From a bacterium (GTDB lineage: Bacteria > JAJVIF01 > JAGGVT01), in contig JAGGVT010000076.1 in the NCBI GenBank assembly GCA_021157815.1, positions 1-10,113 of the forward strand: a stretch of DNA of 10,113 nt. Direction: 5' to 3'. Positions 435 to 8,157 of this stretch are shown here, piece after piece. Made by a program: the position numbers and the translations under genes. The notes under the pieces were generated by a model. That model made no database searches and was not told where the DNA came from. It worked only from the letters and a program-made list of their open reading frames with translations. Position 1 is the first letter of the stretch. Every line of letters begins with the position of its first letter.

Positions 435-1124
435 CTAGCGCACTTTCCCCCAAATCTTCGATGCCATACCTCCGCCCAGCGCGATTCGGGTGCCTTTGAC
501 TTCGAGTATAACCTGTCCGCCTTGATTAAAAATTATATCCGCGATTGTGTCCGGCAGAAGTCCAAGTGTGGCGAGTCGCTTGTTTAAATTGGGACCGCCA
601 TCGATTCCCTTGACCAGAAACTGCTTGCCCTCGGGAGCTTTGGTTAGATTGCACAAGCCTTTCTTTATGAAATCCTCACTGCGAGTAACAATCTTCTTCT
701 GCCTCATTTTATCACGGTAACCCTCAAACCACGCCGGTCTGTCCTCGTAATGGTCCTCGACGGCAGACATGAATGCGGCAAGGTTTTCGACTGTTTCAGG
801 ACTGAGAACATGTTCAACCTTGCATGCGTCATCATCTGCAATTTCGTATGACACCCCCAGCACTTCCTGAAAGAAATGCGAGATTAGATTATGGCGACGG
901 TAAACCTCATGGGCATACTCCTGTCCCTTTTTTGTCAGTTCGACATGGCCATACGATTCATGTTTTATTAATTCCTTTTCCTTGAGCACTTTCAACGCTG
1001 AGTTGACTGACGGCATTTTAACATCCAGAGCCTGAGCGATATCCTTCACGCGAACAGCTTTGTTTTTCGCTGACAGGATGCTGATAGTCTCAAGGTAATC
1101 TTCTATGCTTGCGGTTAATTTAAT
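435..1124 (-). CDS. DtxR/MntR-family metal-dependent transcriptional repressor (proposed ATT start)
   Basis: Cytoplasmic DNA-binding repressor of metal homeostasis, of the family that uses Fe(II) or Mn(II) as co-repressor. From the proposed ATT start the product is 229 residues, normal for three-domain members. Order: winged helix (about 1-70, opening LTASIEDYLETI, then VKDIAQALDVKMPSVNSALK), dimerisation and metal-binding domain (about 71-145, with RRH at 76-78 and C101-x2-E104-H105), and a C-terminal FeoA/SH3-like domain (about 157-229, ending ALGGGMASKIWGKVR). The first conventional start is GTG at 1049, giving 204 residues, but it would delete the first helix with likely metal ligands D9 and E12. 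No ATG, GTG or TTG lies in frame between the upstream TGA (1134-1136) and that helix. The perfect Shine-Dalgarno GAGGT supports ATT at 1122-1124; a sequence error is the alternative. C101 is as in DtxR/IdeR, while D9 is as in MntR, so metal preference cannot be told. A dyad over its promoter suggests autoregulation. Confidence 0.9.
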   Translation of the reverse strand: MKLTASIEDYLETISILSAKNKAVRVKDIAQALDVKMPSVNSALKVLKEKELIKHESYGHVELTKKGQEYAHEVYRRHNLISHFFQEVLGVSYEIADDDACKVEHVLSPETVENLAAFMSAVEDHYEDRPAWFEGYRDKMRQKKIVTRSEDFIKKGLCNLTKAPEGKQFLVKGIDGGPNLNKRLATLGLLPDTIADIIFNQGGQVILEVKGTRIALGGGMASKIWGKVR

Positions 1125-1130
1125 GATGCA

Positions 1131-1135
1131 ACCTC
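1131..1135 (-). promoter_or_regulatory. Shine-Dalgarno site deciding the DtxR gene start
   Basis: On the minus strand GAGGT is fully complementary to the 3' end of 16S rRNA and lies 6 bases before the ATT codon at 1124-1122. That ideal spacing fits no other usual start codon in the gene's frame. The same stretch is inside a six-codon frame in another register (ATG at 1140, TAA at 1122-1120) whose stop overlaps the ATT, so initiation by coupling is also conceivable. Confidence 0.6.
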
Positions 1136-1160
1136 ACCATGTCTGGAATTCAAACCAGTC

Positions 1161-1202
1161 AATATCATCTAAAAGTTAAAAAGTACTAACTTTCATGATA
1201 TT
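1161..1202. promoter_or_regulatory. Candidate DtxR-type operator, 42-bp interrupted dyad
   Basis: Inner arms AAAGTTA (1172-1178) and TAACTTT (1187-1193) are perfect inverted repeats around 8 bases. Outer arms AATATCAT (1161-1168) and ATGATATT (1195-1202) are also perfect inverted repeats. The dyad fills the space between the -35 and -10 boxes of the minus-strand promoter and covers the -10 box. Position, symmetry and the adjacent repressor gene fit an autoregulatory operator. The sequence is not a textbook DtxR or MntR box, so the assignment to this repressor is an inference. Confidence 0.6.
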
Positions 1203-1208
1203 TGTCAA
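1180..1208 (-). promoter_or_regulatory. Promoter of the DtxR-family gene
   Basis: On the minus strand a perfect -35 TTGACA (1208-1203) is followed after 17 bases by TACTTT (1185-1180), a weak -10 matching 3 of 6 consensus bases. Transcription would begin near 1173 and leave a leader of about 50 nt before the proposed ATT start. The dyad at 1161-1202 overlaps it. Confidence 0.55.
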
Positions 1209-1363: not shown

Positions 1364-1392
1364 TTGACAGTGTTTTCCCATGATAGTATAAT
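1364..1392 (+). promoter_or_regulatory. Perfect consensus sigma-70 promoter
   Basis: TTGACA (1364-1369), 17 bases, TATAAT (1387-1392): both boxes match the housekeeping consensus completely at ideal spacing. Transcription should start near 1399, about 280 nt before the aldolase. This is the strongest promoter seen in the window and probably drives the aldolase, or a small RNA encoded in the leader, or both. Confidence 0.8.
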
Positions 1393-7152: not shown

Positions 7153-8157
7153 TTGAAATCAAAATACATTTTCAATTTCCTCTGTGCTCCTGAGGAACGT
7201 GAAGCCAAACTGTATGGCGGCCAGGCGATACTTGAGGGCGTAATGATGAAAGGCTCCAACAAGGCGGTTGCCTCCGTGCGATGTCCCGATGGAAGCATCA
7301 AATCCAAAGTTATAAAGGAATGGCCTGAAAAGAAGGGATTCGATATAAAACGCATGTCGTTTATTCGAGGCATTTTCGTGCTTTATGAATCCCTCACACT
7401 TGGCATGATAGCTCTCAGATATTCAGCTGAAACAGCTTTTGACGAGGAAGAAGGAGAAAAGCCAAATCCCATCATCGAAAGCCTGATGTTCGCTGTCAGT
7501 ATCGCGCTCGCAATCGGATTGTTTCTTGTTTTTCCCACCAAACTTGTTGAGTGGATCGGATTAAAGGAAGCCGGCGCCAGTTTAAGCCCATCAGATCCTA
7601 ACGCTCTTCTTCTAAACCTTGCAGAGGGTGTAATTAGAATTATCATTTTCGTTGGCTACATTCTTGCAATTTCACTGATGAAAGATATCAAGCGCGTTTT
7701 CAGATATCACGGCTCGGAACATAAAACAGTAAACGCCTATGAAGCCCGTGTTCCTCTGACAGTTAAAAATGTTCAGAAATACCCAACCGCGCATTTCAGA
7801 TGCGGCACGAGTTTCATTTTTATCGTTGTGATTGTGCATATTTTAATTTCAGCATTGTTCGGATTCTCGGATAACATTTGGATTCGCACAGCTATACGGC
7901 TCGGCACGCTTATTCCGGTAGCGTCAATATCCTATGAACTGCTTCGGCTCAGCGCGGCTAATAAATCCTTATTGTTAAGCAGAATCCTCTTCTTTCCCGG
8001 AATTGCTTTTCAGAAAATCACCGCGCTGGAGCCTGATGATGACATGGTTGAAGTGGCGATTGACGCATTCAAGCAGGTTATTCCCGAAGATGATCCCCTA
8101 ATTATCGAAAAGCAGAATCAAGATGAGGAAGTTTCCGCTGACATAAATCCAGATTAA
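7153..8157 (+). CDS. DUF1385 (YqhQ-like) integral membrane protein
   Basis: Conserved membrane protein of unknown biochemical function. Family hallmarks are in order: YGGQAILEGVMMKG (21-34), a short strand region VASVRCPDGSI (39-49), SFIRGIFVLYESLTLGMIALRYSAE (69-93), YHGSEHKTVNAYEA (185-198), the HFRCGTSF motif (214-221), and a C-terminal ITALEPDDDMVEVAIDAF (289-306). Hydrophobic segments lie at about 111-130, 159-176, 219-238 and 246-266. The length of 334 is normal. Start: TTG at 7153, the only usual start codon upstream of the conserved YGGQA block; AAAGG lies about 10 bases before it. Internal ATGs near 7243 would remove the hallmark. In many bacteria this gene lies between rpmE and prfA; here rbr and two exported-protein genes separate it from rpmE. 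A SpoIIE-type gene follows after 27 bases, probably in the same operon. Confidence 0.92.
   Translation: MKSKYIFNFLCAPEEREAKLYGGQAILEGVMMKGSNKAVASVRCPDGSIKSKVIKEWPEKKGFDIKRMSFIRGIFVLYESLTLGMIALRYSAETAFDEEEGEKPNPIIESLMFAVSIALAIGLFLVFPTKLVEWIGLKEAGASLSPSDPNALLLNLAEGVIRIIIFVGYILAISLMKDIKRVFRYHGSEHKTVNAYEARVPLTVKNVQKYPTAHFRCGTSFIFIVVIVHILISALFGFSDNIWIRTAIRLGTLIPVASISYELLRLSAANKSLLLSRILFFPGIAFQKITALEPDDDMVEVAIDAFKQVIPEDDPLIIEKQNQDEEVSADINPD

Follow-up and report, generated by a model that had tools for sequence, protein, structure and literature searches.

In Escherichia coli two genuine AUU starts are known, and the AUU codons of infC and pcnB limit the translation of genes whose products are made in low amount (PMC9410913). 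Similar cases have been described in Staphylococcus aureus, where cvfC1 starts at AUU and ccpN, a gene for a transcription repressor, starts at AUA; in poor medium, reporters with such non-standard starts reached about 10% of the AUG level (PMC13009471). A narrow search of the literature found no work in which an AUU start is linked to MntR or to genes of the DtxR family.

We have analyzed a contig of 10,113 nucleotides (the window, i.e., the whole stretch of DNA examined) that carries on its minus strand the gene of a metalloregulator of this family. A non-standard start close to the first helix of the protein is the best explanation of the 5' end of this gene. The features involved are the following:

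435–1124, minus strand: gene of a DtxR/MntR-type metalloregulator whose C-terminal domain is FeoA; counted from ATT 1124, the frame has 229 codons up to the stop at 437-435
1122–1124, minus strand: ATT, the most likely start codon, with GAGGT at an aligned spacing of 6; nearest usual start of 7/124 homologues
1125–1127, minus strand: ATC, adjacent alternative start codon, with GGTGA at an aligned spacing of 8; nearest usual start of 15/124 homologues
1131–1138, minus strand: Shine-Dalgarno site GGTGAGGT, with the registers GAGGT (1135-1131) and GGTGA (1138-1134)
1134–1136, minus strand: TGA, the stop that bounds the frame on its upstream side, as read from the sequence
1120–1140, minus strand: six-codon frame ATG GTG AGG TTG CAT CAT TAA, probably non-functional
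1174–1191, minus strand: operator AGTTAG-N6-TTAACT, the TTAG-N6-CTAA of the family with one mismatch
1203–1208, minus strand: TTGACA, presumed -35 element, as read from the sequence

The product belongs to the DtxR/MntR family, with both the winged-helix domain PF01325 (Fe_dep_repress, 49.5 bits against a cut-off of 26) and the metal-binding and dimerisation domain PF02742 (Fe_dep_repr_C, 68.6 bits against 27) above the Pfam cut-offs, as is the FeoA domain PF04023. The alignment to Bacillus subtilis MntR (1on1) was read at D8, E11, H77, E99, E102 and H103, which we take to be the numbers of its metal ligands. Equivalents of D8, E11, H77, E102 and H103 are present, the first two of them in helix 1, while the position of E99 is occupied by Cys, as in DtxR. 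The NCBIfam MntR equivalog models scored 91.9, 77.4 and 72.5 bits, all below their curated cut-offs (153, 138 and 350 respectively), and for this reason we do not name the regulator MntR. The gene has a coding score of 67 bits in its own frame, which stays open to the stop with the domains intact and no further lesion along the 229 codons, and no second PF01325 gene was found in the genome.

The minus strand reads TGA (1136-1134) GGT TGC ATC (1127-1125) ATT (1124-1122) AAA TTA ACC GCA AGC ATA GAA GAT TAC CTT GAG ACT ATC. Between the TGA and the conserved first helix there is no ATG, GTG or TTG in frame, the earliest being GTG 1049. This agrees with the preliminary description, which placed helix 1 between these two codons with no usual start ahead of it, and whose coordinates were all correct. 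A phase-specific coding model, for which long ORFs in a 443 kb sample of this genome served as training set, gave the 24 codons from ATT to GTG 1049 a score of +5.5 bits in frame and of -28.7 and -24.5 bits in the other frames. In no other frame does this segment score as coding, and helix 1 lies within the coding region. The stretch just upstream of ATT, in the same frame, scored -16.4 bits. Of the 241 coding ORFs in the 443 kb, none has a longer coding-like stretch ahead of its first usual start than the one before GTG 1049. Read-through of the TGA can be discarded, as the frame beyond it meets another stop before any start codon.

The highest-scoring other stretch of this kind lies near position 7244 of another locus of the genome (L078), and we read it as a frameshifted gene. 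There (7180-7290, contig C130) an AAA-type ATPase gene has its frameshift just before SEENIRRAIKTAES, either a decayed gene or an assembly indel, and the case indicates that indels or decayed genes do occur in this draft.

Shine-Dalgarno sites are in use in this genome: of 234 long genes taken from the 443 kb, 92 have a match of five bases or longer, with a spacing peak at 4–8. The GAGGT that had been placed six bases ahead of ATT is indeed found at 1135-1131, and its spacing of 6 is modal within that peak; GGTGA stands at a spacing of 8 from ATC. The pairing energies, for which the standard anti-Shine-Dalgarno sequence was assumed because a contig ends within the 16S gene and the tail is missing, were -7.6 kcal/mol for ATT and -7.4 kcal/mol for ATC. 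These values beat 81 and 78% of the gene leaders respectively, and 96% of the background. At ATG 1140, the first codon of the six-codon frame, pairing was -2.7 kcal/mol versus a background median of -2.2. The gene combines a correctly placed Shine-Dalgarno site with the lack of a usual start before the conserved beginning of the protein. The start is probably one of the two codons, ATT or ATC, and for ATT specifically we would put the chances at about even. By its spacing the GAGGT register appears to point to ATT over ATC; the sequence cannot separate them, since GGTGA suits ATC no less than GAGGT suits ATT. Of the ATT start claimed earlier, then, the non-standard nature stands, and ATT is still the favoured codon, though not distinguishable from ATC 1127.

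We compared 126 DtxR-family N-termini, including the one described here, obtained from searches of relatives and of genome contigs. Helix 1 was placed by HMM and columns were counted relative to our gene, with ATC as 0 and ATT as 1. All but two of the 126 genes had a usual start (ATG, GTG or TTG) within columns -14 to +3, the nearest one falling at column 0 in 15 and at column 1 in 7 of these 124. The two without a usual start at the equivalent place were the regulator of the window and L007 (1490-1560, contig C66 of genome G107), a DtxR-family gene that has ATC at column 0 and no usual start before helix 1. No evident Shine-Dalgarno site precedes the ATC of L007, and G107 is the only representative of its order in the genome collection. 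The regulator gene itself is absent from three relatives of the same class, and no close relatives of it were found in the phylum, in viral contigs or in the genome collection, where the matches were Bacillota genes with 46–54% identity. One genome of the class (G003, L037:1501-1752) has no DtxR-family gene, yet a stretch of its coding sequence resembles the FeoA portion of the regulator.

Upstream of the gene, the core of the operator reads TTAG-N6-TTAA (1189-1176). An exact TTAG-N6-CTAA was present in the upstream region of 39 of the 126 homologues, versus 0.44 in shuffled sequence, and we infer that the site ahead of the regulator is autoregulatory. Over the whole genome the searched operator pattern had two perfect matches, one at this gene and the other at C27:49510. 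The latter (C27:49510-49527, L041:1501-1518) is a perfect DtxR-type palindrome. It immediately precedes the gene of an exported CbiX-type chelatase, which is likely a member of the regulon. With two such sites, the second before the chelatase gene, the data suggest that the regulon is small. A promoter is predicted at TTGACA (1208-1203), although the scan for consensus promoters did not report this element. In that case TACTTT (1185-1180), located 17 bases after it and inside the operator, would be a weak -10, and the transcript would start near 1173, giving a leader of about 50 bases.

Elsewhere in the window, a perfect sigma-70 consensus promoter (TTGACA-17-TATAAT, 1364-1392, plus strand) is found about 290 bases ahead of the gene at 1679, presumably a class II fructose-bisphosphate aldolase. 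Positions 124-408 of the plus strand, after repeat-like sequence at 1-118, hold an open frame with no start codon near its beginning (DFSTDCLRFNLDLEKIRNDADRIDQPDEL...) that resembles the end of a disrupted gene. At the contig end (9782-10111, minus strand) there are two copies of a stretch translating as SKTPSPLAGRAG, similar to a dispersed repeat.

Several other explanations of the missing start have to be weighed. An error of sequencing or assembly, or a minority strain variant, could have replaced a usual start at 1124 or 1127, or an indel could be hiding one, and we regard this as unlikely, if well short of negligible. The assembly is a draft of 221 contigs with at least one frameshifted gene (L078) in the 443 kb sample, ATT is a single substitution away from ATG, and nearly all homologues, as described above, do have a usual start. 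Against it, an indel would bring in ATG 1140 with its background-level pairing and would leave a good Shine-Dalgarno site unused inside the gene, and the frame is long and intact, with no other defect. We hold error or variant to be disfavoured by about four to one, a figure that is a judgement and that weighs the improbability of a random error in one given codon and the two real AUU starts of E. coli. A genuine loss of the start codon, in a gene newly silenced whose remainder has not yet decayed, would give the same picture by a single mutation. This seems very unlikely for a gene that keeps its 229 codons free of other lesions, with domains, operator and Shine-Dalgarno site intact, and that is the sole PF01325 gene of the genome.

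Within the preferred explanation itself, ribosomes leaving the six-codon frame could re-initiate at ATT or slip into the frame of the gene. The overlap suggested in the preliminary description does exist, since the TAA of the small frame (1122-1120) and ATT have T1122 in common. The coupled initiation proposed there found no support and is in our opinion highly improbable: ATG 1140 has no Shine-Dalgarno site of its own, and an ATG mini-frame that stops no more than 2 bases from the start accompanies 21 of 253 ordinary starts (8%), so the arrangement does not go beyond chance. A slip from the frame of ATG 1140 was discarded, as it needs a +1 shift at CAT TAA, where no recognisable signal was seen beyond the Shine-Dalgarno site. 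Finally, a start at GTG 1049, the earliest usual codon in frame, giving a protein of 204 residues, is extremely improbable: its pairing is -0.1 kcal/mol (weaker than 93% of the gene leaders) with no Shine-Dalgarno site, helix 1 and two conserved metal ligands would be lost, the segment upstream scores as coding, and none of the 126 census homologues starts, or is obliged to start, at its equivalent; homologues that do start there had been named as a finding that would overturn the ATT claim.

The preferred explanation is thus a start at ATT or at its neighbour ATC. The predicted product is, with good probability, an intact and self-regulated metal-sensing repressor of the DtxR/MntR type. Guided by the Shine-Dalgarno site GGUGAGGU, translation would start at AUU 1124-1122, or possibly at its neighbour AUC 1127-1125. 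Initiation at either codon would be inefficient because IF3 discriminates against AUU and AUC, and such weak initiation would keep the repressor scarce, in addition to its transcriptional self-repression. In our analysis, weak AUU/AUC initiation limiting an autoregulated repressor is the most likely reading. It is quite unlikely, in contrast, that a conserved weak start sets the level of repressor by growth state or IF3 activity, as a translational layer on metal homeostasis; on that reading the independent case of L007, with its ATC, would hint at recurrence in the DtxR family. The infC gene of this organism (L040 1421) appears to have ATG with a good Shine-Dalgarno site, and so a self-control of IF3 like that of E. 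coli infC is not evident here.

If true, a metal-dependent repressor would be added to the few AUN-starting genes listed for bacteria, and would be a further type of repressor, after ccpN, whose amount may be limited by the choice of start codon. Gene finders limited to ATG, GTG and TTG would miscall it as a protein of 204 residues without helix 1. The regulator resembles other MntR/DtxR metalloregulators with a C-terminal FeoA (SH3-like) domain in its helix-turn-helix, metal-binding and dimerisation, and FeoA domains, and also in the upstream operator of the TTAG-N6-CTAA type; it differs from them in having no usual start codon and in falling below the MntR equivalog cut-offs. With infC and pcnB of E. 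coli it would share an AUU start that limits a gene made in low amount, but infC regulates itself through IF3, while the gene described here encodes a metal regulator. The likeness to S. aureus lies in ccpN, whose product represses transcription and whose AUN start is non-standard, and in the AUU of cvfC1. In both of these genes the Shine-Dalgarno motif is extended and the start codon conserved, whereas here the site has an ordinary length and the start codon is read from one genome. Non-standard starts as a way to make little protein are uncommon and already known in bacteria, and this gene is a further example.
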